A stretch of 64,000 nucleotides of DNA from Shewanella maritima (GTDB lineage Bacteria > Pseudomonadota > Gammaproteobacteria > Enterobacterales > Shewanellaceae). Location of the stretch: NCBI RefSeq assembly GCF_004295345.1, contig NZ_CP036200.1, positions 3,287,501-3,351,500 on the forward strand. Direction: 5' to 3'. The number at the start of each line of letters is the position of its first letter. Position 1 is the stretch's first letter. The notes under the pieces are model-generated. The model was not told the origin of the DNA, ran no database searches, and saw only the letters and a program-made list of their open reading frames with translations. A program made the translations under genes and the position numbers. Shown here one piece after another: positions 5,485 through 26,510 of this stretch.

Positions 5485-5499
5485 GCAACTGCCGCGCCA
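5485..5499 (-). promoter_or_regulatory. Sigma-54 promoter of focA
   Basis: On the minus strand the sequence is TGGCGCGGCAGTTGC, against the RpoN consensus TGGCACGNNNNTTGC: the GG and GC elements are intact with the exact 10-base gap and there is one mismatch. The predicted start lies near 5473, giving a leader of about 125 bases before the focA ATG. The activator-type palindrome is about 85 bases further upstream. Confidence 0.8.
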
Positions 5500-5584
5500 A
5501 GTGTTTTGTATATTTTTAATACATTGTTTTATATAGCTTTTGTGTTTGATGGTTTTACTGGTAAGTGCTGGTGGTTGCGAGGTG

Positions 5585-5600
5585 TCGACACTAATGTCGA
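5585..5600. promoter_or_regulatory. Activator-type palindrome upstream of focA
   Basis: TCGACACTAATGTCGA is a perfect TCGACA-N4-TGTCGA inverted repeat. The identical 16-mer occurs at 13672-13687 upstream of the hyf operon, and relatives lie at 26352-26395 upstream of hydN-fdhF. A half-site TCGACAT follows at 5619-5625. The distance to the sigma-54 promoter fits an upstream activating site for an FhlA-type protein. Confidence 0.75.
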
Positions 5601-5685
5601 GTGGTATCTAAAATGTGATCGACATGCAGAATGTTTAGGATACTTTTAACCCGGTCACAGCTTGAGGATGGTTACAATAACTGGG

Positions 5686-7215
5686 TTAGCAGCTTGCTTG
5701 GGTGTTTTTCGGCATGCTTAGCAAGCGTCTTGAGGTGGTATCAATCGCCAGGTTAAGTAATGCGGTGCAGGCGATTAACACAATCGCATCGCTGTAGCGG
5801 ATCTCACTGAAATTACTGTCGATGTAAAAACCTAGAGTCATGATGCCTAACATGCCAAAAACGGCGGTTTCTCTTACGATAATTTCAAATCGATAAAACA
5901 TCAGTGCCATTAAATTAGGGTAAATACTTGGCAGCATATGGTAGTGGAACAGGTTGAACTTACCTTGTGCGACTTGTTGCGGATTAAGTTGATCGCTTTG
6001 GCGCACTGCGAGATAGGCGATAACCGCGCCATTATGAATGGCTAAGGCGATAATCGCCGGCAACATGGATGGGCCAAACAAGATTAAGAATACAAATGCC
6101 AAAATGTACTCAGGCACCGAGCGACCGACTAACAACAGCAACTGACCTAAGCCTGCTACAGGCTTTGACCATAGGTGTCGACTGGCAACAGCATGGCCTT
6201 TGAGGGTAACAAAATGGCTAGCGGCTAAGGCGAGTACTGCAAGAATGACAGTGGTAACGGCGCCCGGCAGGGCTTGCTCGCTAATCAACCTGGTAATCCA
6301 GCTGCCAAGGGCAGACCAATCTATGCTCTGCATATCTTGTGCATTGGCGATAGCTGGCGGCAAAATATCTTCAGTGAAAAACCGTACCAATAAACTGCCA
6401 TCAATTGGCGGAATGTCGCTTAGGGTGACCAAGGCAATGACCAAGTAAATTGGCAGTAACTTGGGTTTGCACCAGTAGCGGATACAACCAATCAGGGTGA
6501 TAAAAATCATCAGCAATGCCGCACCTTCATGGTAGTTACCTTGCCTAAACGCGGTTTCAAGATAGAAACCGAGTGTTGGCATACCAATAAAGCCCAGCAC
6601 GGCGCTACTGCGTAGGGCACACTCAAATCGATAACGGGTGTATGCAATCATCTGTGGCAGCACTTGCGCTATCTTGCCGTAGCTATAGCGACTGATAATG
6701 TCGCTTTGCTTGGAGATGCTATCGATAGGAGCGTTAGATGATTGGGTGAGAATGTCACTAAACACCCTGGCAAATGTCGCGGCAAAGGGAATGGTGATCG
6801 CCAAGATGCCGGTTACCGGCGATAAACCAAAGATTTGCAAAAATAATAATGCCCAGAATATCTCATGTACCGCGCGAGCGAGTGAGCATAAGGTCGACAC
6901 CGCTTTATGGCGGTATATGAGTGACAAAGGCGCGCCAAATAGTAGGCCAAAGGTGATGCCTAACAGGGCAAAGTTGATGGTTTGCACAACTGCAGACATT
7001 AAATACTCTGTGGCAAAAAAGTCAGGTGCTAATATGCCTTGTGCCATTAGTCCAAGCTCATGCCAGGGATTAAAGCTCACTATTTCAATGTCAGCAAAAG
7101 GTAGTGCGAGCAGCGCGATTAGCCAGATCCCAAGGGTGACCTTTTGCCAGTACCCTAGGTGGTAGCGGGCTGAATTGTTAGCTGCATAGGCTTTGGTGTT
7201 TAGCGTGCGAGTCAT
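5686..7215 (-). CDS. PhnE-type ABC permease, two fused domains; putative selenium transporter
   Basis: A 509-residue inner-membrane protein with two homologous permease halves (about 60-250 and 320-505). Each half carries an EAA-type coupling loop: the first near residues 180-225 (MIAYTRYRFECALRSSAVLGFIG), the second near 430-465 (LMALMFYRFEIIVRETAVFG). PhnE permeases usually have one domain, so this is a fusion or duplication. It is the last gene of a three-gene minus-strand operon with a PhnC-like ATPase and a PhnD-like binding protein. No C-P lyase genes are present; the neighbours are selD, tRNA-Sec, selA and selB. Transport of selenate or another selenium compound is therefore the best inference. 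Confidence 0.75.
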   Translation of the reverse strand: MTRTLNTKAYAANNSARYHLGYWQKVTLGIWLIALLALPFADIEIVSFNPWHELGLMAQGILAPDFFATEYLMSAVVQTINFALLGITFGLLFGAPLSLIYRHKAVSTLCSLARAVHEIFWALLFLQIFGLSPVTGILAITIPFAATFARVFSDILTQSSNAPIDSISKQSDIISRYSYGKIAQVLPQMIAYTRYRFECALRSSAVLGFIGMPTLGFYLETAFRQGNYHEGAALLMIFITLIGCIRYWCKPKLLPIYLVIALVTLSDIPPIDGSLLVRFFTEDILPPAIANAQDMQSIDWSALGSWITRLISEQALPGAVTTVILAVLALAASHFVTLKGHAVASRHLWSKPVAGLGQLLLLVGRSVPEYILAFVFLILFGPSMLPAIIALAIHNGAVIAYLAVRQSDQLNPQQVAQGKFNLFHYHMLPSIYPNLMALMFYRFEIIVRETAVFGMLGIMTLGFYIDSNFSEIRYSDAIVLIACTALLNLAIDTTSRRLLSMPKNTQASC

Positions 7216-7217
7216 TG

Positions 7218-8015
7218 CTAACCTACGTCCTTAAGCTGCTCGTCAGAGTGCTTAATGTTTTCCGTATCAAGAGCTTTTGCTTGTGGATCAGTTACTTTTG
7301 TTTGTGGATCAGTGAATAGGGCTTGTTGGCTGGCAACCAGTGTTTTTTGATACAGCTCGGTAATCTTAGCTTGATTGACTGTCTCTTCGTGGCTATCAAG
7401 CGCCAACTGCCCCTGACACAGGGCGATGACTCTATCAAAATGACTTAAGGCCAGATCTCTGTCATGCACTACCATGATGACGGTTTCATGCAAATCGAAT
7501 AACTTGGTGATCAGCCGCCGCGCCATAAGCGGGTCGATGGCCGAGAAGGGCTCATCACCAATGAATACCGCTTGTTGTTGATACACCGCGCGTCCTAGCG
7601 CAACGCGCTGGCGCTGGCCGCCAGAGAGTTGATCGACTTTTTTATCAAGCGCTTGGTCTAACTCCAGCTGCTGGCAAATGCTTTGTACCTTATTCAAGTG
7701 GCTTTTAAAGGGCTTGATAAGGTTGACTAAGTTATAGCTCCAATGGTGACGCGCAAGCGCGCCCATATAAATGTTGTGATAAATACTTAAGTTATCTACT
7801 AAGCCCTGGGCTTGCGAGCAAAGCGCTGCCTGGTCTTGTAGTTGCTGATAAATATGATGCAGCAAGCTAGACTTGCCAGCGCCCGATGGTCCGATAATCG
7901 CGACCTTTTCCCCTTTACTGAAGTCGAGGTTGAGATTAAAGATCACCTGCGTTTGTTGTGTCTCTGAACCAGAGTCAGCGCCGTAAAATAGGTTAAGGTC
8001 GCGAAGTGTTAGCAT
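7218..8015 (-). CDS. PhnC-type ABC ATPase; putative selenium transporter
   Basis: A 265-residue cytoplasmic ATPase energising the adjacent permease. Walker A is GPSGAGKSS (about residues 42-50), the signature LSGGQRQRVALGRA (about 129-142), Walker B VFIGDEPF (about 150-157), and the H-loop VVHDRD (about 182-187). The last 40 residues are a polar extension that includes a short near-repeat (TDPQTK/TDPQAK). It abuts both neighbours, so it is cotranscribed. By family it resembles phosphonate/phosphite importers; its place among selenium genes argues for a selenium oxyanion. Confidence 0.8.
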   Translation of the reverse strand: MLTLRDLNLFYGADSGSETQQTQVIFNLNLDFSKGEKVAIIGPSGAGKSSLLHHIYQQLQDQAALCSQAQGLVDNLSIYHNIYMGALARHHWSYNLVNLIKPFKSHLNKVQSICQQLELDQALDKKVDQLSGGQRQRVALGRAVYQQQAVFIGDEPFSAIDPLMARRLITKLFDLHETVIMVVHDRDLALSHFDRVIALCQGQLALDSHEETVNQAKITELYQKTLVASQQALFTDPQTKVTDPQAKALDTENIKHSDEQLKDVG

Positions 8016-8893
8016 CAGTCAATTAATCCTATTTGTTTTGCCACATCTTCTACCGGTTGGTAGTCGGCATTGGTTGCTTCAACAAATGACGAACGTGGGA
8101 AGCTTTTGAGTAGATCTGGGTTATCCATTTCTAACAGGGTTGTTTTCACCTTCTGGATAAAGCCGTCACCGTATTTTGCATCCACATCGGAGCGAATAGT
8201 CCACTGATAGTCAGGGTAGGTGGGTGTTTCCCAAATCACGCTGACTTTGCTGGTGTCGATTTTGCCCTCAGAAAGTTCCTTCTCCCACACTTTGTAATTC
8301 ACCGCGCCGATTTGATAAGCACCTGACTGCACCTGGGCAATGGTGCGGCTGTGATCGCCAGAAAAACCTACGCGCTTAAAGGCTTGTTTTGGTGACTTAT
8401 GTAAGTGCTGCTCAATAAAGTATTGCGGCATTAAGCGGCCTGAAGTAGAGCCTTTAGAGCCAAAGGTAAAGGTGGTGCCATTAATGTTGGGGAAGTCTTT
8501 ACTCGCTGTTAGCCCAGTACTTTGGTGGGCAATGATGTAGCTTTTGAAGAATTGATCTTCATAACCCTGAGCGATGGCTTGTGAGTCCTTCACTAGCTTA
8601 CGCGCTTGCACGCCAGACAGACCGCCAAACCAGGCTAGCTGTACCTGATTGTTTCTAAAGGCAGTGACCGCTGCCGAGTAGGATTTTACTGGCACATAGT
8701 TAACATCCACCCCAAGCTGCTGCTCAAGGTAGGTTGCCACTTTTTCAAAGCGGGTTCTTAGTTGGCTTTCATCTGCATCAGGAATGGCGGTAAAGGTAAA
8801 GGTCGCCGCTTCTACGCAGAAGAAAGGAGCTAAAGTCAGGGTAGCGATGGCTGAGAATTTTGCGAACGCTTGGCTTGGTTTGCGATTTAACAT
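8015..8893 (-). CDS. PhnD-like binding protein, probable selenium (selenate) type
   Basis: A 292-residue periplasmic binding protein with a signal peptide (about 1-29, ending VEA-A). The fold markers are those of the PhnD family: FTAIPD near 35, a QLAWFGGLSGVQARK segment near 105-120, FGSKGSTSGRLMPQYF near 165-180 for oxyanion binding, and a GAVNYKVWE segment near 195-205. I recall that a PhnD-related subfamily found beside selD is annotated as putative selenate-binding protein, and this context fits it. It is the first gene of the operon and overlaps the ATPase start by one base. Phosphonate or phosphite binding remains possible. Confidence 0.75.
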   Translation of the reverse strand: MLNRKPSQAFAKFSAIATLTLAPFFCVEAATFTFTAIPDADESQLRTRFEKVATYLEQQLGVDVNYVPVKSYSAAVTAFRNNQVQLAWFGGLSGVQARKLVKDSQAIAQGYEDQFFKSYIIAHQSTGLTASKDFPNINGTTFTFGSKGSTSGRLMPQYFIEQHLHKSPKQAFKRVGFSGDHSRTIAQVQSGAYQIGAVNYKVWEKELSEGKIDTSKVSVIWETPTYPDYQWTIRSDVDAKYGDGFIQKVKTTLLEMDNPDLLKSFPRSSFVEATNADYQPVEDVAKQIGLID

Positions 8894-9217: not shown

Positions 9218-9309
9218 GGAAGTTGATGAGGTCTGGTGGCCTTCTCGGTCTTCAAAACCGATGTGAGCCTAATAGGCTTTGGCAGGTTCGATTCCTGCCT
9301 CTTCCGCCA
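9218..9309 (+). tRNA. selC: tRNA-Sec (anticodon TCA)
   Basis: A 92-base selenocysteine tRNA ending in an encoded CCA. A 6-bp D stem with a 4-base loop (GAGGTC-TGGT-GGCCTT) is specific to tRNA-Sec. The anticodon loop is CTTCAAA (TCA) on a TCGGT/ACCGA stem. There is a long variable arm (AGCCT-AAT-AGGCT) and a T arm GCAGG-TTCGATT-CCTGC. The acceptor end pairs GGAAG with CTTCC, but the next bases (TTG against CT) do not pair as in the 8-bp acceptor of E. coli tRNA-Sec. It is followed directly by selA and selB. Confidence 0.9.
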
Positions 9310-9415: not shown

Positions 9416-10915
9416 ATGACTACTTATAAAATTAGTGATGTCAGCGATGATAATAGTGAAACTGGTGATGTTTCTTCCTCTGATATGAATATTTATTCAA
9501 ATGGAAGGCTGCGCCTTCCCCAAGTTGAGCAAGTCCTGCAGCGCCCTTTTATTACCCCATTCATAGCTCAGTTGAGTCGGCCATTAGTGACTCAGGCTGT
9601 GCGAGAGTATTTCGCTAAAGTGCGCGCGAGCCAGCAGTCGCAAACCATTACCCATTTTGATTTAGAAGCGGGTATTACTCGTGAGTTGTCTAAATTGATG
9701 CTCGTGCGTCAGCAGCGAGTGATTAATGCAACTGGCACTATTATTCATACCAATTTAGGGCGCTCACCCATTAGCCCTGAGCTGTGGGATCAAGTTAAAG
9801 ACGTCAACACCCATTACAACAATCTTGAGTTGGCTTTGCATAAAGGCAAGCGTGGCCAGCGCAAGGGGCTAATCGCCGAGCTACTTCAGGCGCTAACTGG
9901 CGCTGACAATGCGCTGGTGGTTAATAACAATGCCTGCTCTGTGTACCTAATTTTGTTGGCGTTAGCCCAAGGTAAAGAAGTGATTGTTTCCCGCGGTGAG
10001 CAAATTCAAATCGGCGGCGGCTTTCGTATCCCTGATATTTTAGCTATGTCAGGTGCCAAGTTAGTTGAAGTGGGCACTACCAATGTCACCACCTGCGGTG
10101 ACTACATCAACGCCATTACCGAAAATACTGCCATGGTGCTGCTGGTACACCAGTCTAATTTTGCCATTCGCGGCTTTACCGAGTCGGTAGATATCAAGGC
10201 GCTGAAAGCCAGATTGCCTGAAGATGTGATTTTGGCGGTTGACCAAGGCTCAGGCGTATCCACTGAAGATTTTTGCCCAGAAGAAAAAGACATAGGCCGC
10301 TACATCAAGCAAGGGGCAGATCTTGTGTGTTTTTCTGGCGATAAGATTATTGGCGGCCCACAAGCCGGCATCGTGTGTGGCCGTGATGATTTAGTTCAGA
10401 TACTTGAAAAAAGCCCGATGATGCGCGCCTTTAGGCCGGGACGAATTATCTTGTCGCTGCTAGAAGCCTTGCTAGTTGAAAAGCTTAATCGCAGCGACAT
10501 GGGCAAGGGTATTTCTCAGGCGCAAATCGAGCGCTTACCACTGACTAAGCGTTACGCTGAAAAGCTTGCCTGCTACTTTGGCGATAAGGTTGAAGTGCAG
10601 CCGATGACCGCGGTAGTTGGCGGTGGCACGCTACCTGATTGTGATTACCCCTGTTATGGCGTCGCCATAGTGGGTGAGGCGAAATTGCTTAGTGAGCAGC
10701 TGCGCGCATGTCCTATACCTGTTATTGGGGTGATAAATCGCGACCGCTTTGTGCTCAACTTAGCCAGCGTGACCGAAGATGATTTTGAAGTGTTATTTGA
10801 GCAACTTTGCGCGCTGTTTGCACCTGAGCAACAGCCTGTTAGTCAAAAGGCGCTTAGTCAAGAGCGAGTTAGTCAAGAGCTTGGGCAAGGGAAACAACAA
10901 GAGGGTAATAGCTAA
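9416..10915 (+). CDS. selA: Selenocysteine synthase SelA
   Basis: A 499-residue PLP enzyme that converts Ser-tRNA-Sec to Sec-tRNA-Sec using selenophosphate. The family core is intact: GTIIHTNLGRSPIS near 105-118, the substrate region around NNNACSVYL near 170-178, and the PLP lysine in FSGDKIIGGPQAG near 303-315. SelA is usually about 460 residues; this one has extra polar residues at both ends, notably a repeated Ser-Gln-Glu tail (SQKALSQERVSQELGQ). The start ATG has GGAG ten bases upstream. The stop overlaps the selB start by one base, so the two are cotranslated. Confidence 0.95.
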   Translation: MTTYKISDVSDDNSETGDVSSSDMNIYSNGRLRLPQVEQVLQRPFITPFIAQLSRPLVTQAVREYFAKVRASQQSQTITHFDLEAGITRELSKLMLVRQQRVINATGTIIHTNLGRSPISPELWDQVKDVNTHYNNLELALHKGKRGQRKGLIAELLQALTGADNALVVNNNACSVYLILLALAQGKEVIVSRGEQIQIGGGFRIPDILAMSGAKLVEVGTTNVTTCGDYINAITENTAMVLLVHQSNFAIRGFTESVDIKALKARLPEDVILAVDQGSGVSTEDFCPEEKDIGRYIKQGADLVCFSGDKIIGGPQAGIVCGRDDLVQILEKSPMMRAFRPGRIILSLLEALLVEKLNRSDMGKGISQAQIERLPLTKRYAEKLACYFGDKVEVQPMTAVVGGGTLPDCDYPCYGVAIVGEAKLLSEQLRACPIPVIGVINRDRFVLNLASVTEDDFEVLFEQLCALFAPEQQPVSQKALSQERVSQELGQGKQQEGNS

Positions 10916-12840
10916 TGACATTGCAAACAGACTCTCACGCAACTCATCACTCCCATGGGCAAGCTAACGCGCTAACTCAAGCTGAGCAAAACTCAAGCCT
11001 GTCGTCAGTGGTGGCGTTAGCAGGGCATGTTGACCATGGTAAAACTGCGCTTATCTATGCCATGACTGGCATTATGACCGCGCGTAAGGCCGAGCAAGAG
11101 TGCGGCATGACACAAAACCTTGGCTTCGCGCATTTTAAAGATGCTAAAGATCATCAAATAGGCATTATTGATGTGCCGGGGCATGAGCGCTATATCCGCA
11201 ATATGGTGGCAGGTCTGTGGAGTATTGATCTAGTGCTGTTGGTTGTTGCCGCCAACGAAGGCTGGATGCCAATGACTCAAGCTCACCTTGAAGTGGTCAA
11301 CGCCATGAGTCATGCCAAGGTGTTGGTATGTATTACTAAATCGGACTTGGTTGATAAGCGCCGTTTGAGCGAGCTTGAAGATGAATGTTTGCAACGGGTG
11401 ATGGACACCTGTGAGCAGATCCCTAATGTCATCTGTGTCAGCGCCCATAGTGGTGACAATATTAATGAGCTAAAGCAGCTGATAAGCGATGAGCTAAACG
11501 ATGATTCAATTGTTAGCGCAGCTCAAGAAGCGGGGGCTGAATCTGCAGCGGAGCAGGCGTTATCTGCCACGGGCATACAATCTTGTCATTTGTATGTGGA
11601 TCGCAGTTTTAGCATTAGTGGTATCGGCACTGTGGTCACAGGCTCTTTGGTCGGCGGTGAGTTGAGTGTTGGCGACAAGCTGCACTTAATGCCAAGCAAT
11701 CAAGTGGTTAAGGTGCGTAACCTACAAGCCTACAATAAAAGTGTTGAGCATGTTGCTGGCACCAGCCGCGTCGCAGTGGGGATTAAAGGGGTTAACTTTA
11801 AGCTAATTCACCGCGGCGATTGCTTAACTAATGAGCCGCAAGTGCATCAAGGCACCCAAGAGATCATTTTGCGGTTGAATAAACGCACCGACAAGCTGCG
11901 CAATTGTCAGCTGGAAGTCGCCATTGGCAGCTGGAATGGTATCGCGCAGATGATCAAAATTACCGACACTCAGCTGGTACGTCTTAAGCTAAAAGCGCCA
12001 GTAACCTGTTATTTCGGTCAGTCGGTGGCGCTTATTCAGCAAGGTGGCAGTCGCTTAATTGCTGGTGGTCGCATCGCCTGGCTGACACCGATTATGCGCT
12101 GGCAACGTCGTCAGCTGTATCATCTGCTAAACCAACTACCGCAAGAGTTTAGCTCGCCTTATCAAACCAAGGTGCAGCTGCAGCTTAATGGCGTACTTGA
12201 AAAGCAGCAATTTGCCTGTGTTAAAGGCTCTGATGTTGTCAGTGATTTAAAGTTGATTGAAACCGATAAACATTATTTACTCACCAGCCTTGTTGAAGAG
12301 GCTGAGCAGAAAATATTAATGCTACTGGCTGAACCTGCAGCAGCAATTACCAGTGCCGAGTTTGTCTCACGCTTGAAACTATCGCCAGTGACGATTGATT
12401 TGGTGTTGCAGCGCCTAAAAGCGCAGGAAAAAGTACATCTAAGTTTTGATACCTGGGTAGCAGAGCAGGGCATGAGTGAAGATGACTTATGCCCTGCCAG
12501 TCAGAGCCTACTGGCCAAAGTGCGCGATGCCGAGCGTGCCGGCATTGCTGCTGACAAACAGCTAGTGGGCAATGATAAAAAGCTGATTAAAAACCTAGCG
12601 CGGCTTAAATACGTCACCCTGTTGGATGACCATATTTATTACGACACCCAGCTTTATAATCAACTGGTTGAAGATGTACTCAGCGGTTGTGAAAAGCTCG
12701 ACTTATTGTCGATGGCGCAGATTAAAGACCGCAGTCATTTGAGTCGTAAATATGCTATTCCGTTAGCTAACCGTATGGAACGAGATGGTTGGGTGAGACG
12801 ACAAGAGAATGATCGTTTGGTGTTAAAGTTGGTTTCATAA
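10915..12840 (+). CDS. selB: Selenocysteine-specific elongation factor SelB
   Basis: A 641-residue GTPase that carries Sec-tRNA-Sec to the ribosome and binds the SECIS hairpin. G1 is AGHVDHGKT (about 36-44), G3 DVPGHE (about 85-90), and G4 TKSD (about 141-144). Domains II and III follow (GIGTVVTGSLVGG near 236). The C-terminal 260 residues form the winged-helix SECIS-binding region, ending SRKYAIPLANRMERDGWVRR. There is a histidine-rich N-terminal extension (SHATHHSHGQ) of about 30 residues before the GTPase, which is uncommon. It is the last gene of the selA-selB unit and is followed by a terminator. Confidence 0.95.
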   Translation: MTLQTDSHATHHSHGQANALTQAEQNSSLSSVVALAGHVDHGKTALIYAMTGIMTARKAEQECGMTQNLGFAHFKDAKDHQIGIIDVPGHERYIRNMVAGLWSIDLVLLVVAANEGWMPMTQAHLEVVNAMSHAKVLVCITKSDLVDKRRLSELEDECLQRVMDTCEQIPNVICVSAHSGDNINELKQLISDELNDDSIVSAAQEAGAESAAEQALSATGIQSCHLYVDRSFSISGIGTVVTGSLVGGELSVGDKLHLMPSNQVVKVRNLQAYNKSVEHVAGTSRVAVGIKGVNFKLIHRGDCLTNEPQVHQGTQEIILRLNKRTDKLRNCQLEVAIGSWNGIAQMIKITDTQLVRLKLKAPVTCYFGQSVALIQQGGSRLIAGGRIAWLTPIMRWQRRQLYHLLNQLPQEFSSPYQTKVQLQLNGVLEKQQFACVKGSDVVSDLKLIETDKHYLLTSLVEEAEQKILMLLAEPAAAITSAEFVSRLKLSPVTIDLVLQRLKAQEKVHLSFDTWVAEQGMSEDDLCPASQSLLAKVRDAERAGIAADKQLVGNDKKLIKNLARLKYVTLLDDHIYYDTQLYNQLVEDVLSGCEKLDLLSMAQIKDRSHLSRKYAIPLANRMERDGWVRRQENDRLVLKLVS

Positions 12841-12887: not shown

Positions 12888-13255
12888 CCAAACTTCCTTT
12901 GGATTGCCACTTAATGACTTCGTCATTTGCAACCAAGGGGCGTTGAAAGAGTACCAAGCTGCGCTTGGTGTAAAGTCGTGGGATTTCATCCCACACCCGA
13001 GCAAGAAGGGGATCAACAGCAATCCCCTCTTGCATCTCCCCGTGCCGCCCCAACGAAATTGTTTTTCCTCATTGCTTATTCGAAAATACCTAACGCTTTC
13101 GATAGGCCATCCATGGCCAAACGAAAGCTAGCCTGACGTCCTGTCAGGCTTACGCTATTTTCTTCAACGCACTTCGGCAATTCCGAAGGGGGTTGTTGTA
13201 ATCTGCAACCACATTGGTATTAAAAACCGCTTTTGGATTTTATTGCTTTCTTAGG
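12888..13255 (+). repeat. Composite hairpin repeat, copy 1
   Basis: A chain of short hairpins in fixed order: CCAAACTTCCTTTGG, AATGACTTCGTCATT, ACCAAGC-TGC-GCTTGGT, GTGGGATTTCATCCCAC, then GGGGAT...ATCCCC, GGCCATCCATGGCC and AGCCTGACGTCCTGTCAGGCT. The same chain recurs at 13261, 25484, 25920 and 33741. Short open frames here are by-products of the repeat. No transposase is present. Confidence 0.8.
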
Positions 13256-13260
13256 AGCCT

Positions 13261-13840: not shown

Positions 13841-13881
13841 AATAACAGGCCAAGTACTGCAATAAAAACAAAAGGCTGATT

Positions 13882-17529: not shown

Positions 17530-17541
17530 GGAGCAAATAAG

Positions 17542-18987
17542 ATGACGTTAGAAACTCTTGCTCTACTCACCATTTTGTCACCGTTTATCGGGGCAATCCT
17601 AACGGTATTAGTGCCGAAAGACACCGCCAAGTGGGTTTGTCAGTGCTTTGCAGGTATAGCATCTGCAGGTGCGATTGGTATCGCCATCACGCTACTAAGT
17701 GGCGGCGAATCCAGTGTGAGTTATTCATTATTGTCGATTGGCCAAGTTGAATTATTTGGCATCACCATCGATAAAGTTAGTTCGTTAATTACCGTTGCCG
17801 TTGTGGTGCTTGGTTTACTGGTGAGTTTGTACTCACTTGGCTATATGTCAGAGGGTAACCGCGAGCATCCACATGAGGGAATGCCACGTTACTACGCCTT
17901 CTTGCTTATCTTCATCGGTGCAATGGCGGGCTTAGTATTATCATCGACCATTTTAGGTCAGCTGTTCTTCTTCGAAGTAACAGGTGCCTGTTCTTGGTCG
18001 CTAATTGGTTACTACCAGTCGCCTAAATCGCTTAAAGCTGCGCTTAAAGCATTGTTGGTGACCCATGTGGGCTCAATTGGTTTATTTGTGGCAGCAGCCT
18101 TTGTATTCAATGCAACTGGCACGTTCGCAATTAGCGCATTAGCCACACTGGATGAAAGCACTAAGACCATCGTATTTATGGGTATCTTGTTTGCAGCTTG
18201 GGCGAAATCAGCTCAGTTACCACTGCATGTATGGCTACCAGATGCGATGAACGCGCCAACGCCTGTGAGTGCTTACTTACACGCAGCTTCTATGGTTAAA
18301 GTGGGCGTGTACATCTTTGCTCGCGCTATCATGGAAGGCGGCGAAATTCCTGAAATCATCGGTGTTATCGGTGTTGTCAGTGCCATCATCACGCTAATTT
18401 ACGGCTTCATCATGTACCTGCCACAAAAGGACATGAAGCGCCTATTAGCTTACTCAACCATCACTCAACTTTCATACATCTTCTTAGCGCTATCCCTGTC
18501 GATCTTCGGCTCTAAGCTAGCACTAGAAGGCGGTATTACTTACATCTTCAACCACGCGTTTGCTAAGAGCTTGTTCTTCTTAGTTGCCGGTGCATTCAGT
18601 TACACCATGGGTACGCGCATGTTGCCACAACTTAAAGGTGTGGTGAAAAAGTCGCCGCTACTGGCTGTCGGCTTCTGTGTTGCGACCTTGGCAATTACCG
18701 GTGTGCCTCCATTTAACGGCTTCTTCAGTAAGTTCCCACTGTTTGCAGCAGGTTTTGAATTGTCTGCCGAGCACAGCTGGTTAATGCCAATCATGATTTT
18801 GGCATTGATTGAGTCGGTCGCGAGCTTCGGTTGGATCTTGTACTGGTTCGGTAAGTCAGTTGTCGGCGAGCCTTCAGAGGCGGTTGCCAACGCTAAACCA
18901 TTACCAGCGTCAATGAAAGTGGTGATTGTCTTCTTGATTGTGATGTCACTGTGTTCAAGCGTTATCGCTGCTAACTGGCTTGTATAG
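17542..18987 (+). CDS. hyfD: Hydrogenase-4 membrane subunit HyfD
   Basis: A 481-residue NuoN/NuoL-type antiporter-like membrane protein. Conserved parts are AAWAKSAQLPLHVWLPDAMNAPTPVSAYLHAASMVKVGVYI (starting near 212) and the lysine helix QKDMKRLLAYSTITQLSYI near 295-313. Presence of hyfD, hyfE and hyfF in addition to hyfB separates this hydrogenase-4 type complex from the smaller Hyc complex. Twelve bases separate it from hyfC. Confidence 0.9.
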   Translation: MTLETLALLTILSPFIGAILTVLVPKDTAKWVCQCFAGIASAGAIGIAITLLSGGESSVSYSLLSIGQVELFGITIDKVSSLITVAVVVLGLLVSLYSLGYMSEGNREHPHEGMPRYYAFLLIFIGAMAGLVLSSTILGQLFFFEVTGACSWSLIGYYQSPKSLKAALKALLVTHVGSIGLFVAAAFVFNATGTFAISALATLDESTKTIVFMGILFAAWAKSAQLPLHVWLPDAMNAPTPVSAYLHAASMVKVGVYIFARAIMEGGEIPEIIGVIGVVSAIITLIYGFIMYLPQKDMKRLLAYSTITQLSYIFLALSLSIFGSKLALEGGITYIFNHAFAKSLFFLVAGAFSYTMGTRMLPQLKGVVKKSPLLAVGFCVATLAITGVPPFNGFFSKFPLFAAGFELSAEHSWLMPIMILALIESVASFGWILYWFGKSVVGEPSEAVANAKPLPASMKVVIVFLIVMSLCSSVIAANWLV

Positions 18988-19008
18988 CACTGAGAAAAGG
19001 AAGGATTT

Positions 19009-19659
19009 ATGAATCCAGATATTGTAATTAACAACCTTGCCGGCTTGCTGATCATCACCAGCGTGATGCTCATTGGCTCAAGTAAGGCGAAATCTGCCGC
19101 GATTCTCTACTCGGTGCAGTCGCTGGTTTTAGTGTTGACCTTCTTGGCGATCGCCAAGTCGGTTGACGCCACCGAGTTATACCATTGGTCGATAACCGCA
19201 TTCATCACCAAGGTGATTGCATTACCTGCGCTGCTTTACTACGCGCTTAGCAAAATGAGTGACCCAAGTGCAGATAAGCCAGCACTGAGCATGAGCTGGA
19301 TAATCCCAATTGCGGGCATCATCTGTATCGCCAGCTTTCAGGCGGTTGAGTCAGTTGCTTTGCCGATTGTTGAGCACCTAAAACCAGCACTTGCTGTGTC
19401 GGTAGGTCACTTCTTCTTAGGTCTGCTGTGCATCGTCAGTCAGCGCAACATTCTTAAACAGCTTTTTGGCTACTGCTTAATGGAAAACGGCTCGTCGTTA
19501 ACCTTAGCGCTATTAGCTAACAAAGCACCAGGCATTGTCGAGATTGGTATCACTACCGACGCTGTTTTTGCAGTGATCTTCATGGTGATCCTTGCCCGTC
19601 AAATCTTCAACAAGTTGAACACCTTAGACGTGAATCAACTGAATCAACTTAAGGGGTAA
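19009..19659 (+). CDS. hyfE: Hydrogenase-4 membrane subunit HyfE
   Basis: A 216-residue protein with several membrane segments, matching the HyfE family, which is related to NuoK-like subunits. The end (QLFGYCLMENGSSLTLALLANKAPGIVEIGITTDAVFAVIF, from about residue 152) is typical: the glutamate in MENG and the acidic ITTDAVFAV helix are conserved in the NuoK/MrpC-like fold. It lies between hyfD and hyfF with short gaps. Its assignment rests on this helix pattern and strict gene order. Confidence 0.88.
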   Translation: MNPDIVINNLAGLLIITSVMLIGSSKAKSAAILYSVQSLVLVLTFLAIAKSVDATELYHWSITAFITKVIALPALLYYALSKMSDPSADKPALSMSWIIPIAGIICIASFQAVESVALPIVEHLKPALAVSVGHFFLGLLCIVSQRNILKQLFGYCLMENGSSLTLALLANKAPGIVEIGITTDAVFAVIFMVILARQIFNKLNTLDVNQLNQLKG

Positions 19660-19664
19660 TCAAG

Positions 19665-21260
19665 ATGTCTCCAACTGATATGTTGCTATTACTTATGGTG
19701 ATCCCTTTAGTGGCAGCGGGTATCTCATTCGCTAGCATTAAAGGCGGCGAGGGTGGCCGCAAGATAGCTATAGGCTGTCACGCCCTGTCGATGATTGCCA
19801 TTTTAGTGTTGTCATTTACCTTGGCTGGCACAGTGTTCTTTGATGGACCTGTGATATCTGAGGGGCGCTGGTTGTATCTAGATGGGCTATCTGGCCTGTT
19901 CTTAGGGGTACTGGGTCTAGTCTCGATTCTTACCGGTATGTACTCAATTGGCTACATTGGCCATGAGTATAAACACGGTGAAATCTCTGGCACTAAGGTG
20001 TCGCTGTACTACGGCCTGTTTAACTTGTTTATCGTTTCTATGTTAGTGGCGGTAACAGCAAACAACGTGATTATGATGTGGGTCGCCATTGAGGCAACCA
20101 CCATCTGCTCAGTGTTCTTGGTTGGTCTTTACGGTCAGCGCTCGTCACTGGAAGCCGCGTGGAAGTACATTGTGATTTGTACGGTTGGTCTTGCATTTGG
20201 TTTGTTCGGTTCAATCCTAACTTACTCAAACGCAGCAGCTGTGTTTGCTGACCCTGCTAACGCCATTTTCTGGACTGACATTCATCAAAATGCTCAGGCA
20301 TTGGATACAACGCTAGTACATCTTGCGTTCATCTTCGTGCTGATTGGCTTTGGTACTAAGGTGGGCTTGTTCCCAATGCACGCTTGGTTACCCGACGCTC
20401 ACTCCGAGGCGCCAAGTCCTGTGAGTGCACTGCTTTCAGCAGGGCTTTTGAATTGTGCTTTGTTAGTAATTCTACGTTACTACATCATCACGGTTAAAGC
20501 GATTGGTCCAGCTTTGCCGCAGAACCTGTTATTGATTTTTGGTTTCCTTTCGGTAGCGACTGCGGCATTTTTTATTATCACCCAACGCGACATCAAACGT
20601 CTGCTGGCGTACTCAAGTGTTGAGAATATGGGTTTAATTACTCTAGCTATCGCACTTGGACCACTAGGTGTGATTGCCGCACTACTGCACGTTATCAACC
20701 ACAGCTTAGCTAAAACCCTCATGTTCTGCGGTGCTGGCAATATCTTGCTGAAATACGGCACCCGCGACATTGGTATTGTGAAAGGCATTTTGCGTGTTGC
20801 GCCTATCACAGGTGTGTTAGTGGTGATTGGTGCATTAGCTCTAGGCGGCGTGCCTCCATTTAGCATCTTTGTCAGTGAATTCACCTTAGTGACAGCCGCC
20901 ATTGGCGACGACAGAGTGCTATTTACCATCGTATTACTACTGATCTTAACCATTGTTCTTGGCGGTTTAGCTTATATGGCAGCCCAATGCGTGATGGGCG
21001 AGCAACCTAAAGAAGTGGAAAAAGGTGAGCTTGGCTTTATGACCTTAGCGCCAATGGCTGCGATTGTAGTAATGCTAGTTGTAATGGGGACAGCCATTCC
21101 AACATCTGTACTAAAAGGGATTGATAGTGCAGCGCTTGTCATCCTTGATAGCGAAGAAAGTAGCGTGATGAATACTTTGAATCTTCCTCTCAAGTCTCTT
21201 CATCAAACTCAGCAGCAGGCCAATGCCGATCTGACTGAAATCCCACTAGCGCAGCAATAA
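19665..21260 (+). CDS. hyfF: Hydrogenase-4 membrane subunit HyfF
   Basis: A 531-residue antiporter-like membrane protein, the third of the NuoL/M/N-type subunits in this operon. Key helices are FGTKVGLFPMHAWLPDAHSEAPSPVSALLSAGLLN (from about 229) and RDIKRLLAYSSVENMGLITLAIALG (from about 308). It has a polar C-terminal tail of about 50 residues with QQQ-type composition. Five bases separate it from hyfE, and it is followed 13 bases later by the GTG start of hyfG. Confidence 0.9.
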   Translation: MSPTDMLLLLMVIPLVAAGISFASIKGGEGGRKIAIGCHALSMIAILVLSFTLAGTVFFDGPVISEGRWLYLDGLSGLFLGVLGLVSILTGMYSIGYIGHEYKHGEISGTKVSLYYGLFNLFIVSMLVAVTANNVIMMWVAIEATTICSVFLVGLYGQRSSLEAAWKYIVICTVGLAFGLFGSILTYSNAAAVFADPANAIFWTDIHQNAQALDTTLVHLAFIFVLIGFGTKVGLFPMHAWLPDAHSEAPSPVSALLSAGLLNCALLVILRYYIITVKAIGPALPQNLLLIFGFLSVATAAFFIITQRDIKRLLAYSSVENMGLITLAIALGPLGVIAALLHVINHSLAKTLMFCGAGNILLKYGTRDIGIVKGILRVAPITGVLVVIGALALGGVPPFSIFVSEFTLVTAAIGDDRVLFTIVLLLILTIVLGGLAYMAAQCVMGEQPKEVEKGELGFMTLAPMAAIVVMLVVMGTAIPTSVLKGIDSAALVILDSEESSVMNTLNLPLKSLHQTQQQANADLTEIPLAQQ

Positions 21261-21273
21261 GCGAGGAGTTCCT

Positions 21274-23070
21274 GTGGATTTTAATACTAATTATCAAAGC
21301 AGCGAAGACGCCCCAGTTGGGGGCGCGAAACAAGCATTTAGCCATGCCAACCATAAAAGAGATAATAAAATCGGTTACGGCTATGTTGCAGGGGTTCATC
21401 AATTCTTTCCTTCGGCAATTATTGAAGAAGAGTGGCAAACCGAAAACCAGGTCACTATCACTGTGAAACCAACCTCCTTAATTGAGGTGATGAAGTGGTT
21501 GTACTACGAGCAAGGCGGCTGGTTAGCTGTGTCATGGGGTAATGACGAACGTAGCATTAATGGTCACTTCGCCCTGTACCACGCGCTTTCGATGGAAGGT
21601 GAAGTGAAAAGTTGGGTAACGGTGAAAATCTTAATTGATGAGAAAACCCAGGAGTTTCCATCAATCACGCCGCACATTCCAGCAGCGGTGTGGGGCGAGC
21701 GTGAAGCCCGTGACATGTATGGTCTGCGTCCTGTTGGTCTACCGGATGAGCGCCGCTTAGTGCTACCGGATGACTGGCCAGAAGACTTACACCCACTGCG
21801 TAAAGATGCAATGGACTACCGTCAGCGCCCAATGCCAACTACTGAAGATGAGACTTACCCATTTGATAACCAATTAGGTGACGACTCAAACCGCATTGTG
21901 CCAGTGGGGCCGCTGCACATTACCTCAGATGAGCCTGGACACTTCCGCTTATTCGTAGACGGTGAGGACATTGTTGATGCCGATTACCGCATGTTCTATG
22001 TGCACCGCGGCATGGAAAAACTCGCTGAAACCCGCATGGGTTATCACGAAGTGGCGTTCCTGACTGACCGTGTGTGCGGTATTTGCGGCTTTACCCACAG
22101 CGTGGGTTACTCAAACAGTGTGGAAAATGCCCTTGGCATTCAGGTGCCAGAGCGCGCCAAGATGATCCGTACCGTGCTGCTTGAGGTTGAGCGTTTGCAC
22201 TCGCACTTACTCAACATTGGTCTTTCAAGTCACTTTGTGGGCTTCGATACCGGTTTCATGCAGTTCTTCCGCGTACGTGAAAAAACCATGGAGCTGGCTG
22301 AGCTGCTAACTGGCGCGCGTAAAACTTACGGCCTGAACCTGATTGGTGGTGTGCGCCGCGATATTCTCGCCGCGCATCGTTCACAAGGTATCAAGATGGT
22401 GCGTGAAGTGCGTGATGAGTTTAACGAGCTGGTGGACTTCTTAATGGCGACGCCAAACCTAGATAGTCGTATTAGTGGCGTAGGTATTTTAGACCGCCAA
22501 GTTGCTCGTGATTTTAGCCCTGTAGGCCCTGCTATACGTGGTACTGGCTGGCAACGTGACGCGCGTATTGTGCATGGCGGCACGCTGGAATCTTACGGCA
22601 AGATGCCAATGGAGCTGCAGCACGAAAACACGGGTGACGTGCGTGCCCGTGTGTTAGTTCGTGTACGCGAAGTGTATGACTCACTCAACATGGTTGAGTG
22701 GGGCTTGGACAATTTAGCACCAGGTAAGTTGCTAATCGAAGGCTTTGATTATCAACCAAATAAATTTGCGCTTGGCTTCACAGAAGCACCTCGTGGAGAG
22801 AACGTACACTGGAGCATGACAGGGGATAACCAGAAGCTATTCCGCTGGCGTTGCCGCGCGGCGACCTATGCTAACTGGCCAGTACTGCGCTACATGCTAC
22901 GTGGTAATACGGTGTCAGATGCGCCGCTGATTATTGGCTCACTTGACCCATGTTACTCGTGTACTGACCGCGTCACCATTGTCGATAAGCGTAAGAGTAA
23001 GTCTAAAACTCTGTCTTACAAAGAGTTTGAACGCTACGGCATGGAACGTAAGCATTCACCGCTTAAGTAG
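21274..23070 (+). CDS. hyfG: Hydrogenase-4 catalytic large subunit HyfG (NuoCD-like)
   Basis: A 598-residue fusion of an N-terminal NuoC-like domain (about 30-190) and a NuoD-like [NiFe] large subunit. The nickel-binding cysteine pairs are present: RVCGICGFTHS near 265-275 and DPCYSCTDR near 556-564. A C-terminal extension of about 34 residues after the second pair is the peptide expected to be removed by the HycI-type protease after nickel insertion. GTG start with GAGGAG upstream. It reduces protons to hydrogen with electrons from FdhF. E. coli homologues are about 570 residues; the extra length is at the N-terminus. Confidence 0.93.
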   Translation: MDFNTNYQSSEDAPVGGAKQAFSHANHKRDNKIGYGYVAGVHQFFPSAIIEEEWQTENQVTITVKPTSLIEVMKWLYYEQGGWLAVSWGNDERSINGHFALYHALSMEGEVKSWVTVKILIDEKTQEFPSITPHIPAAVWGEREARDMYGLRPVGLPDERRLVLPDDWPEDLHPLRKDAMDYRQRPMPTTEDETYPFDNQLGDDSNRIVPVGPLHITSDEPGHFRLFVDGEDIVDADYRMFYVHRGMEKLAETRMGYHEVAFLTDRVCGICGFTHSVGYSNSVENALGIQVPERAKMIRTVLLEVERLHSHLLNIGLSSHFVGFDTGFMQFFRVREKTMELAELLTGARKTYGLNLIGGVRRDILAAHRSQGIKMVREVRDEFNELVDFLMATPNLDSRISGVGILDRQVARDFSPVGPAIRGTGWQRDARIVHGGTLESYGKMPMELQHENTGDVRARVLVRVREVYDSLNMVEWGLDNLAPGKLLIEGFDYQPNKFALGFTEAPRGENVHWSMTGDNQKLFRWRCRAATYANWPVLRYMLRGNTVSDAPLIIGSLDPCYSCTDRVTIVDKRKSKSKTLSYKEFERYGMERKHSPLK

Positions 23071-23079
23071 GGAGACACC

Positions 23080-23643
23080 ATGTTTAAATTATTTAAAACG
23101 ATTGCTAAAGCGGGTGAGTCGACCACTAAATACCCCTTTGCTCCTTATGAAACCAGTGACGACTTTCGTGGTCGTCCTGAGTACGAGCCAGAGCAGTGCA
23201 TTGCCTGCGCGGCTTGTACTCGCGCCTGCCCAGCCAATGCGCTGATTATGGAAACCAAAGAAGCCGACGACTCACGTCGTTGGCAACTCAACCTCGCGCG
23301 CTGCATCTACTGCGGCCGCTGTGAGGAGGTTTGTCCAACTGGTGCAATTAAACTGTCGCAAGACTTTGAACTGGCGGTAGCCAACAAAGCCGATTTATAC
23401 GAGCAAGCCGTATTTAAATTAGCCCATTGCCAAGAGTGCGAAACGCCATTTGCGCCAAAAAAAGCGGTGCAATATGCCCTTGATTTGCTAATTCAATCCG
23501 GTCTCGACCAAGAGCAAATTGATATTCGCGCTAAACAACTTAACACCTGCCCAGATTGTCGTCGTAAAGCCAATATGCTTGAAGGTGACGGACTGATGCA
23601 GGGCAATGCCTTGAAACAGGAGGTCGTCAATGAAGGGTATTAA
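23080..23643 (+). CDS. hyfH: Hydrogenase-4 iron-sulfur subunit HyfH
   Basis: A 187-residue NuoI/HycF-type protein with two [4Fe-4S] motifs, [12 protein letters not shown] (about 46-57) and [12 protein letters not shown] (about 76-87). After these come two further cysteine pairs, CQECETPF (about 117-124) and CPDCRRK (about 156-162), which in the HycF/HyfH family may bind a metal such as zinc or iron. It links HyfA to the small subunit HyfI. Nine bases follow hyfG, and its 3' end overlaps hyfI by 14 bases. Confidence 0.92.
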
Positions 23644-24454
23644 GAAAATCGTTGGCAATGACCACACCCAAGCGGTACCAGTCGAGATTGATGAACAAGC
23701 TGCAAAACTAAAAGGCACCTTGCTTAAAGACATTAAACGCTCAGCGTATGTATACCGAGTTGACTGCGGTGGTTGTAACGCCTGTGAAATTGAAATCTTT
23801 GCTGCCATCACGCCAGTGTTTGATGCTGAGCGCTTTGGTATCAAGGTTGTGGCATCACCGCGTCATGCCGACATCTTGCTATACACAGGGGCGGTAACGC
23901 GCTCAATGCGTATGCCTGCACTGCGCGCTTATGAAGCGGCGCCAGATCCTAAAATTGTGGTGTCCTACGGCGCCTGTGGTAATGACGGCGGTATCTTCCA
24001 TGACCTTTACTGCGTATGGGGCGGCACTGACAAGATCATTCCTGTGGATGTGTACATTCCAGGTTGTCCACCAACGCCAGCGGCAACCATTTATGGCTTT
24101 GCAGTGGCGCTTGGTTTGTTAGACCAAAAACTTAAAGCAAAACACCATGATGAGCGTGAAGGCGAAGTCGTGACCTTGAAGCACACAGGCATTCCACTTG
24201 AGATCAAAACCTTGATTGAACGTGAAGCCCGCCGCTTTGCTGGTTACCGTTATGGTGCCCAAATTGCTGATGAGTTTATGACTGTACTTGCCAGTGCAGA
24301 TCCATCCAATGTCGATGCCAAAATCAAGGCTTATCTCGACGAAAAAGAAGACCCACGTTTAACCGAGATTATCACTAGCATTAATCGCGCTGTGTTAAAT
24401 CGTATGGGGCAACCTGCATCAATGGGCGAAGCTGTCGCCGTAAATCAAGGGTAA
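23630..24454 (+). CDS. hyfI: Hydrogenase-4 small subunit HyfI (NuoB-like)
   Basis: A 274-residue NuoB/HycG-type subunit carrying the [4Fe-4S] cluster next to the nickel-iron site. Cluster ligands are visible in [14 protein letters not shown] (about 44-57), in [10 protein letters not shown] (about 107-116) and in [10 protein letters not shown] (about 143-152). The start ATG has AGGAGG seven bases before it, inside the end of hyfH. The C-terminal 90 residues ([18 protein letters not shown] onward) resemble HyfI more than the shorter NuoB. Confidence 0.92.
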
Positions 24455-24460
24455 TTGCCT

Positions 24461-24863
24461 ATGTCAGACAAGGTGCTGTTTTACGCTTTAAGTCGCAAGT
24501 TTGTCGACGAACAAACAGATGTGCCGGAAGAAGCCAAATCGGTGATTTATTATGGCCTAGCCATTGGTCACCACTTAGGGTCGTAGATTGCTTAAAAGCA
24601 GTGGTTACTTGCTCACGCAGTCAATATCAAACTTGGCTTGAATATTTGCCAGAGGCAGTACGGCAAGGCGTAAGATGGAAGGTTTTTTCACCTTTGGCGA
24701 AATTACCATCTTTCCAGAGCATATTCATATATTGGCTAATGCGTTTGAAGCTGCCATAGAGCAGCAAACAGACGAGTATCAAACATTGAGCCGTGATTTT
24801 ATTAAGGCGCTAGGTGCGATATACCGCGAGCCTGATATGTACATGATGATTAGGGAGAGATAG
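24461..24863 (+). pseudogene. hycH: HycH-like assembly protein, disrupted by two frameshifts
   Basis: The first segment (ATG 24461) reads MSDKVLFYALSRKFVDEQ...AIGHHLG, close to E. coli HycH, then stops at TAG 24584. Moving one frame at about 24580 restores VVDCLKAVVTCSRSQYQTWLEYLPEA. A second shift near 24660 restores STARRKMEGFFTFGEI...HILANAFEAA to the stop at 24863. Both shifts are consistent with a missing single base, one in a G run (GGG where GGGG is needed). HycH helps mature the hydrogenase large subunit. Neighbours are intact, so either this gene is decaying or the sequence has two errors. Confidence 0.85.
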
Positions 24864-24865
24864 TG

Positions 24866-25354
24866 ATGACTGACATTAATCAAGATGCGCCAGCGAAAGT
24901 CAAAAACGTGTTGTTAGCAGTAGGTAACAGCATGATGGGCGACGATGGCGCAGGCCCTTTACTGGCAGAGCTGATGCTCAAAAATCCAATCGAAGATTGG
25001 GCGGTAATTGACGGCGGCAGCGCACCTGAAAATTGCGTGTACAAGGTTCGTCAACTTGCCCCTGAACGGGTGATTGTATTTGATGCGGCAGAAATTGGTG
25101 AGCAAGCAGGTGAGGTGAGGGTGATTGACCCAGATGCCATTGCCGATATGTTTATTATGTCGACACACAGTTTGCCGCTGAACTTCTTAATTGAAGATTT
25201 AAAAACCTTTGTACCTGAAGTGTTATTTGTGGGCGTACAACCAGCGATTGTTGCGTTCTCGTTCCCAATGACAGAGATGGTAGAAGACGCCGTTGGCGAC
25301 CTATACCAACGTTTGCCTAATTGGCAAGGTAATGGTGGCTACGCGGTGATTTAG
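24866..25354 (+). CDS. hycI: Hydrogenase maturation protease HycI
   Basis: A 162-residue endopeptidase of the HycI/HyaD family that removes the C-terminal extension of the hydrogenase large subunit. The N-terminal GNSMMGDDGAGPLL motif (about 19-32) holds the nickel-sensing aspartate. The DGGSAPENC segment (about 50-58), VFDAAEIG (about 71-78) and STHSLPL (about 99-105) are also conserved. Start taken as ATG 24866 with GGGAG upstream; GTG three bases earlier is possible. It is the last gene of the operon and its substrate is HyfG. Confidence 0.92.
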   Translation: MTDINQDAPAKVKNVLLAVGNSMMGDDGAGPLLAELMLKNPIEDWAVIDGGSAPENCVYKVRQLAPERVIVFDAAEIGEQAGEVRVIDPDAIADMFIMSTHSLPLNFLIEDLKTFVPEVLFVGVQPAIVAFSFPMTEMVEDAVGDLYQRLPNWQGNGGYAVI

Positions 25355-25455: not shown

Positions 25456-25483
25456 GGTAACTTGCCAGTTGGTTGAGAGTGTC

Positions 25484-25915
25484 GCCAAACTTAGTTTGGA
25501 TTGGTATTTTAATGATTGCGTCATTTGCAACCTGCGGTTGCTCAACGTCGTGGGACTTCATCCCACACCCGAGCTTGATAGTAAGTTAAAACTTCATTTT
25601 GGCTTCATAGATTTAAATGACTTTGTCATTTTGCAACGTGCCGTTGCTCAAAGTCGTGGGTTTTCCACCCACACCCGACCAAAGGGGAAAAGCGTTTGTT
25701 CCCCTTTGGAAACCCGCAACGCTCCGGCGAAGTGCTAATCCTCATGCCAAAAGAGCGAATTGACTACCGCCTCATATTCGCCATCCATGGCTCACCTGAG
25801 GCTATGTCGGCGTCCTGCCTCCATCACGTCAATTAGCTCTAGGCATTCGGGCACTTCCAACGGAGACCCATGTATCCTGCAGCGACACTTGTACAAAAAT
25901 TTCTAATCAAGGGTC
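25484..25915 (+). repeat. Composite hairpin repeat, copy 3 (with internal duplication)
   Basis: Same hairpin chain as copy 1: CCAAACTTAGTTTGG, AATGATTGCGTCATT, GCAACCTGCGGTTGC and a GTGGGACTTCATCCCAC stem. After a spacer, part of the chain appears again (AATGACTTTGTCATT, a GTGGGTTTTCCACCCAC stem), followed by CAAAGGGG...CCCCTTTG. A GCCATCCATGGC stem lies further on. The short open frames across it look like repeat shadows. Confidence 0.75.
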
Positions 25916-25919
25916 ATTG

Positions 25920-26268
25920 CTTTCTTAGGAGTCTTCATACCACCAGAGTGGAATTAAAAAATACCGTGAGTTCAGCCATGGATGGCTGACTAGCTTTCGA
26001 GGGAAGGGACGCCCCATCGGAAGCGTTAGGTGTTTTTTAATGGAGCGAAGCAGGCTACAAGCGAAGTCAGACGCTCGATAATACTCCGTTGGAAATTTTC
26101 GCTTTTCAAAAATTTCGCCGGAGCGGCAAGGGAGTTGCTGTTGACTCCCTCTTGGTCGGGTGTGGGATGAAATCCCACGACTTTTCACCAAGCGCAGCTT
26201 GGTACTCTTTCAACGCCCCTTGGTTGCAAATGACAAAGTCATCAAACGCAAACTAAAACGAAGATTGG
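25920..26268 (-). repeat. Composite hairpin repeat, copy 4 (inverted)
   Basis: Long near-identity with copy 2, including the GTTAGGTGTTTTTTAATGGA stretch, the AATACTCCGTTGGAAATTTT stretch and the GTGTGGGATGAAATCCCACG stem. It faces copy 3, so the hyf operon is flanked on each side by one forward and one reversed copy. Confidence 0.8.
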
Positions 26269-26351
26269 TAGGTCTAGCGAAACCGCTGCAATCAAACCCA
26301 ATCAAAAATTCAATCATGGGAATTCCCCATGAACCCAAAAATGTGATCTGA

Positions 26352-26395
26352 CGACACTGGTGTCGACGCCAATGTCGAAGCTGGGTGTCGACACC
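26352..26395. promoter_or_regulatory. Cluster of activator-type palindromes upstream of hydN-fdhF
   Basis: Three adjacent palindromes: CGACACTGGTGTCG (26352-26365), TCGACGCCAATGTCGA (26363-26378; the TCGACA-N4-TGTCGA pattern with one change) and GGTGTCGACACC (26384-26395). They lie 100-145 bases upstream of a good sigma-54 promoter, as expected for multiple activator hexamer sites. Confidence 0.75.
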
Positions 26396-26495
26396 GACAA
26401 AACTGCCTGTAAATTAGTAACCTCTTACTAATTACGTGCGTTTAAGTGTTTGAAATTAATCATCTAAATCGAAATTTAATCGATTTCATTCCAAC

Positions 26496-26510
26496 TGGTA
26501 TACATCCTGC
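26496..26510 (+). promoter_or_regulatory. Sigma-54 promoter of hydN-fdhF
   Basis: TGGTATACATCCTGC followed by TTT keeps the GG and GC with the exact 10-base gap of the RpoN consensus. The predicted start near 26522 leaves a leader of about 150 bases before hydN. Between 26400 and 26496 the DNA is AT rich with nothing else notable. Confidence 0.75.

Follow-up and report, generated by a model that had tools for sequence, protein, structure and literature searches.

Which protein reads the palindrome TCGACA-N4-TGTCGA that recurs in front of the formate genes of Shewanella maritima, and is its site the one used by the FhlA activator of E. coli? We have addressed this question in a 64-kb stretch of DNA (hereafter the window) that carries a formate channel gene (focA), a hydrogenase-4 type hyf operon and the hydN-fdhF genes, followed by fhlA (29771-31912), which encodes a presumably formate-responsive activator of sigma-54 RNA polymerase. 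Judged from sequence comparison, the palindrome is very probably the operator, or enhancer site, of this FhlA. The reading is carried by the presence of the element, its conservation, its placement relative to sigma-54-like sites, its recurrence in three E. coli promoters and a helix-turn-helix (HTH) segment identical in the two FhlA proteins, all of which were established by computation.

In the mechanism that we infer, FhlA would bind TCGWCA-N4-TGWCGA (W, A or T) at sites that precede the -12 element of a sigma-54 promoter by about 80-175 bp. In response to a build-up of formate, its GAFTGA-bearing ATPase domain would, with looping of the DNA, open the sigma-54 RNA polymerase at focA, hyf and hydN-fdhF, and the cell would thereby make the formate channel together with the hydrogenase and the formate dehydrogenase. 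The same operator would be used in other families of the order Enterobacterales, which in the GTDB sense includes E. coli.

Copies of the palindrome and their promoters in S. maritima

An identical 16-mer, TCGACACTAATGTCGA, lies 5′ of focA (5585-5600) and 5′ of hyf (13672-13687), and these two exact matches are the only ones to TCGACA-N4-TGTCGA in the host genome (4.72 Mb, one contig; G000). Upstream of hydN-fdhF, two copies with one mismatch each, ACGACACTGGTGTCGA (26351-26366) and TCGACGCCAATGTCGA (26363-26378), overlap one another and are followed by a further pair of half-sites, GGTGTCGACACC, read from the sequence at 26384-26395. None of these putative operators is assigned a strand. An earlier note on this DNA, made from the letters alone, had described the same 16-mer in front of focA and hyf and the related palindromes in front of hydN-fdhF, and its coordinates were confirmed. 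Within the window, eight places match the palindrome with at most two mismatches, against a mean of 1.33 and a maximum of 4 in 100 shuffles. The pair in front of hydN is offset by 12 bp, so that the copies share the half-site TGTCGA; two such pairs are present in the relative G076 and a weaker one in G049, which suggests tandem FhlA arrays.

Over the whole host genome, TCGACA-N4-TGTCGA with at most one mismatch is found at 23 places, against 29 for a reversed control pattern, and the degenerate form TCGWCA-N4-TGWCGA, again with at most one mismatch, at 55 places against 95. Since these counts do not exceed the control, the loose form is background, and the information resides in the exact copies, the placement and the conservation. 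We inspected 50 of the 55 degenerate places, the other five being the second hydN copy, one in the hyfG frame and three more. Open frames of at least 150 aa contain 43 of the 50; the seven outside are those of focA, hyf and hydN plus four others. A sigma-54 score of at least 9 bits within about 220 bp accompanies just two of these seven, focA and hydN. None of the four non-cluster places outside long frames, among the 50 inspected, has such a score. On this evidence the regulon in the host genome is the formate/hydrogen cluster alone, a result largely in favour of the rarity in unrelated intergenic regions that the earlier note had expected. Four host places in long frames, with sigma-54 scores of 9.0-11.7 bits (L009, L013, L177 and L202), were set aside as coding, and an exact degenerate match at 3991765 was rejected because it lies inside a frame with SurA_N and rotamase domains.

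Sigma-54-like promoters were scored with the RpoN matrix of PMC7658346 (Table 2). Such sites lie downstream of the palindrome at focA (TGGCGCGGCAGTTGCT, 5484-5499, minus strand, 18.9 bits), at hydN-fdhF (TGGTATACATCCTGCT, 26496-26511, plus strand, 12.3 bits) and, more weakly, at hyf (TGGTGTGGAACTTGTA, 13826-13841, plus strand, 7.2 bits, with GT at -12). The focA site has the highest score in the window. As 61 places in the window reach 9 bits, the hydN score is not telling by itself; similar sites are found in four relatives (G016, G035, G049 and G106). The weak hyf site also has counterparts, TGGTGCGCAACTTGTA or TGGTGTGAAAATTGTA, in four relatives. The promoters that the earlier note had named at focA and hydN were thus recovered, and the weaker one at hyf, which it had overlooked, is added here.

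Conservation in relatives and the focA paralogue

FhlA (E ≤ 1e-100) was detected in 11 of the 152 genomes of the family, host included, so that the cluster is patchy in Shewanellaceae. To follow the site, we compared the sequences, of at most 400 bp each, that precede 43 genes in 20 relatives; the genes are hyfA, hydN and, from four of the genomes, focA. The set leaves out hyfA of G453, the second hydN of G416, focA of G007 and the extra hydN/fdhF copies in G148 and apparently in G046 and G051. TCGWCA-N4-TGWCGA is perfect in 29 of these 43 regions and present with at most one mismatch in 38. When every gapped palindrome with arms of 6 bases, at most one A/T wobble and a spacer of 0-10 was counted in the last 300 bp of the same regions, with no motif preset and with the window and E. 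coli left out, the TCGWCA-N4 palindrome ranked first (28 of 43); in 20 base shuffles no palindrome reached more than two regions. The consensus of 41 sites with at most one mismatch, of which 38 are distinct, is TCGWCA-YWWR-TGWCGA, with little information beyond the 16 bases; E. coli contributed three of the sites and the window none.

The placement is likewise conserved. A sigma-54 score of at least 9 bits occurs between palindrome and gene, on the gene strand, in 24 of the 43 regions, compared with none of the 43 on the opposite strand and none after one shuffle of each region. The distance from palindrome centre to the -12 element is 106-173 bp in those 24 regions; for focA it is 107 bp in the window, 106-107 bp in four relatives and 109 bp in G007, and for E. 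coli fdhF, hydN and hyfA 82-116 bp. The four nearest relatives all carry the site 5′ of focA and hyfA, largely as the earlier note would have it. At hydN only part of its expectation held, the site being perfect in G016 and having 2, 2 and 3 mismatches in G035, G049 and G106, respectively. The earlier claim that the palindrome marks a formate (FhlA/sigma-54) regulon is supported both by this conservation and by the placement relative to sigma-54-like sites.

The palindrome is found together with fhlA in several families. In ten fhlA-positive relatives, 13 of the 19 places with the exact palindrome lie within 35 kb of fhlA; ten genomes with no fhlA match hold 12 places, and the reversed control gives 20 over all 20 genomes. 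Of the degenerate places listed, 39 of 75 share a contig with fhlA and lie no more than 40 kb from it (the four places of G148 are not among the 75). Some of these 39 lie outside promoters: examples are 1856623 in G285 and, in both G390 and G499, a place 3′ of focA. The latter two were rejected as focA operators because of their position outside its promoter. Other rejected matches outside the cluster are those of G046 and G051, inside a 628-aa frame in whose G046 copy Pfam recognised DNA gyrase B domains, and that of G074 at 148598, inside an aldehyde dehydrogenase frame.

A further set of loci was obtained with E. coli HydN as query against 345 genomes of the order (E ≤ 1e-70), which gave 18 loci in 17 genomes; the window's own hydN falls below this cut-off. 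In every one of the 18 the palindrome is perfect and no more than 214 bp from the start of hydN. Fourteen loci come from genomes new to the analysis and four (two in G148, one each in G074 and G399) from genomes already used. In G416 (contig C3, L105-L106), hydN, the start of fdhF and hycI stand in tandem twice, with the same operator at each hydN copy.

The window focA (4436-5347, minus strand) encodes a 303-aa formate channel with the Pfam domain Form_Nir_trans. When it was used to search the family, matches were obtained in 136 of 152 genomes, yet only six focA genes, including the window's own, are about 70% or more identical (G000, G016, G035, G049, G106 and G007), and all six genomes carry fhlA; the five closest relatives of the window gene are about 70-81% identical to it. 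These six focA genes, linked to formate hydrogenlyase (FHL), were compared with the 24 next-best loci listed (52-57% identical), a set that does not take in the host's second focA at 4259634. All six carry the palindrome, five perfectly and G007 with one mismatch, and have sigma-54 scores of 15-19 bits. By contrast, none of the 24 has the palindrome with at most one mismatch (one has it with two), and a sigma-54 score above 9 bits is reached at one (12.4 bits). The window focA is thus the cluster-linked paralogue, and its membership in the FhlA regulon, which the earlier note had proposed from a single genome, is well supported by these comparisons. No FHL-linked focA paralogue was found in five other fhlA-positive genomes (G046, G051, G074, G076 and G148).

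One conserved intergenic element, TCGTCATTTATGTCGA, was observed away from these genes. It lies in G049 and G106 between a gene for the small subunit of a [NiFe] hydrogenase and a CBS-domain gene (Pfam on L125 only), in regions (L125:2847-3273 and L126:2852-3272) that also hold further half-sites and, by our own reading, the FNR-like TTGACATGCATCAA. No convincing conserved sigma-54 site was seen in the two regions, the best scores, 8.9 and 9.6 bits, being at different positions.

The FhlA protein, the E. coli sites and competing explanations

The protein encoded next to fdhF (713 aa, plus strand) shares 44% identity with E. coli FhlA over 624 aa. Pfam matched its GAF and Sigma54_activat domains, and the C-terminal HTH, which has no Pfam match, was placed by alignment with E. 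coli FhlA. The GAFTGA loop is present in it, in E. coli FhlA and HyfR and in 18 of 20 relatives; a simple pattern did not find a loop of this type in the homologues of G390 and G499. The C-terminal HTH contains LKRTTLLSRM, which we take to be the recognition helix of a Fis-type HTH. This segment is identical in the window and E. coli proteins, and KRTTLLSRM is also found in HyfR. Among the 20 relatives, 13 have LKRTTLLSRM, G416 has LVSRM, the five f25 genomes have MKRTTLLSKM, and the G016 sequence ends before the segment. From the identity of the segment, the window and E. coli proteins are predicted to have the same or a very similar DNA preference.

This bears directly on the earlier note's own version, in which FhlA of this group recognises a sequence unlike that of E. 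coli FhlA. In its favour is the consensus CATTTCGTACGAAATG listed for Salmonella FhlA targets in a table of PMC4987338 that refers to Leonhartsberger 2000. However, in E. coli (K-12 MG1655) the hydN, hyfA and fdhF regions fit TCGWCA-N4-TGWCGA with 0, 1 and 1 mismatches, and when these and the hyc/hyp region are shuffled a mean of only 0.004 regions has a site with at most one mismatch. The listed consensus, scored on E. coli regions only, fits them poorly (best 6-7 mismatches of 16). With the same palindrome at three E. coli promoters, the identical presumed recognition helix and the 18 perfect hydN loci, a different recognition sequence for the window FhlA was ruled out as a working candidate, and we regard this version as very improbable.

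The palindrome might instead be bound by another regulator, such as a local repressor, acting on the same operons beside FhlA. The contact of FhlA with the palindrome is after all inferred, and the FhlA consensus as tabulated in print differs from it. Against this, the site is placed like an enhancer relative to the sigma-54-like promoters, it accompanies fhlA in several families, and it occurs in E. coli promoters that are described as FhlA-controlled: according to published work, FhlA controls fdhF, hyc, hydN-hypF and hyf in E. coli. A second regulator is therefore unlikely to be the explanation. Still less credence, the least that we give to any alternative, is due to the palindrome being an RNA hairpin or part of a dispersed repeat. 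Its symmetric form could fold in RNA, and two repeat copies, 89% similar, stand just upstream of the hyf and hydN sites (13242-13594 and 25916-26268). But where we predict a sigma-54-like promoter, it stands downstream of the palindrome, which would then be absent from the mRNA, and 19 of the 41 sites, such as TCGTCA-N4-TGTCGA, have bases at the A/T position that would be unable to pair in an RNA. As for the repeat, the similarity stops at 13594 and 26268, 78 and 83 bp before the palindromes, which are thus not part of it, and there is no repeat match at focA. A 265-base piece of the repeat has ten matches in the genome, six of them within the window and some inverted.

The assignment of the palindrome to FhlA has to be set against several observations that do not favour it. 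The window hyf has only a weak sigma-54 element. In G046, G051, G074, G148 and G399 the palindrome is 52-57 bp before the start of hyfA, with no sigma-54 site between, and weak sigma-54 scores are seen at hydN both in G046, G051, G074 and G148 (3.3-6.7 bits) and in the five f25 genomes (5.2-8.1 bits). The misses among the 43 regions are hydN of G035 (2 mismatches), G049 (2), G106 (3) and G076 (2) and hyfA of G007 (2). The degenerate form totals 79 places in 20 genomes, hardly raised over 72 for the control. The classical target hyc/hyp of E. coli is without the palindrome (best 3 mismatches), its TGTCGA half-sites being otherwise arranged, and the consensus cited in print differs from TCGWCA-N4-TGWCGA. 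In addition, the FhlA matrix given in PMC7658346, TGWC-RAWRAT-GWCA, scores 16.2 of 17.2 bits at hyc/hyp.

With that matrix, the E. coli fdhF, hydN and hyfA regions reach 7.1-10.0 bits and the focA, hyf and hydN regions of the window 7.1-8.4 bits. The matrix was rejected as a scanner, since it gives 77 matches of at least 9 bits in the window and 10.1 bits at a non-target, the phn-sel gap. Its excellent fit at hyc/hyp means that FhlA may accept a second arrangement of half-sites there. The site in two Shewanella relatives (G046 and G051) reads CATTTCGACAAAACTGTCGAAA, from which one may guess that the CATTTCG/CGAAATG ends of the listed consensus represent the outer arms of this element after loss of its middle. 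Among the literature matches listed, no printed TCGWCA-N4-TGWCGA for FhlA was recognised; an earlier description in Leonhartsberger 2000 or Skibinski 2002 is possible.

The cluster and its relation to known regulons

The hyf operon (13882-25354, plus strand) was drawn from open reading frames and has the gene order of the relatives (tblastn). It comprises, under the presumptive names given in the earlier note, hyfABCDEFGHI and a hycI-like gene. The iron-sulphur protein gene hydN (26676-27224, plus strand) has 4Fe-4S Pfam domains on the frame 26658-27224. Translation of fdhF (27277-29436, plus strand) meets a single internal stop, the in-frame TGA at 27694-27696; it is read as selenocysteine because selC, selA and selB lie in the same window and the halves on either side of it are both kept in relatives. 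With selC (tRNA-Sec, 9218-9309) and selA and selB (9416-12840), the cluster holds, beside fdhF, a nearly self-contained selenocysteine kit. Between focA and selC-selA-selB there is a phnDCE-like ABC transporter (5686-8893; a PF12974 binding protein, an ATPase and a permease), for which phosphite/hypophosphite or a selenium oxyanion are candidate substrates. Beside focA of the relatives, all three genes are found in G016, phnD in G049 and G106, and a 39-residue piece of phnD in G035.

Taken together, this appears to be the known FhlA regulon, with an operator better defined than in the printed sources consulted and one probable extra member, the FHL-linked focA. We also lean, with some reserve, towards a wider view: that the FhlA operator is really TCGWCA-YWWR-TGWCGA, nearly fixed together with the recognition helix across several families while the target operons were rearranged, and that Shewanellaceae added a dedicated second formate channel, a focA distinct from the core copy, whose operator and sigma-54 promoter are its own and lie 106-109 bp apart, a nearly constant spacing. 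If so, formate traffic in Shewanellaceae would be induced together with FHL, and a copy of the formate channel would be under FHL control in Shewanella and its relatives. The palindrome offers a directly testable operator in place of a quoted one that fits its own promoters poorly, and would make it possible to predict FhlA targets throughout the order.

The closest known system is the FhlA regulon of E. coli (fdhF, hyc, hyp, hydN-hypF and hyf), which shares with the Shewanella cluster the activator family, the sigma-54-like promoters, the kinds of target operon and the palindrome at hydN, hyfA and fdhF. Shewanella differs in having one compact cluster with a hyf-type hydrogenase and fhlA adjoining fdhF, and in a focA paralogue that stands alone and has an operator and a sigma-54-like promoter to itself, whereas in E. 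coli the hyf operon ends with focB. E. coli hyc/hyp, unlike the target operons of the window, is without the palindrome. The published consensus CATTTCGTACGAAATG and the PMC7658346 matrix, as tabulated, are palindromic too, and the matrix has the same half-site letters, TGWC/GWCA; they differ from TCGWCA-N4-TGWCGA in spacing and extent. The GlrR enhancer TGTC-N10-GACA, compared here by its description in PMC4987338, is likewise a sigma-54 activator site made of TGTC and GACA, but its half-sites face the other way at another spacing and its targets are glmY and glmZ.

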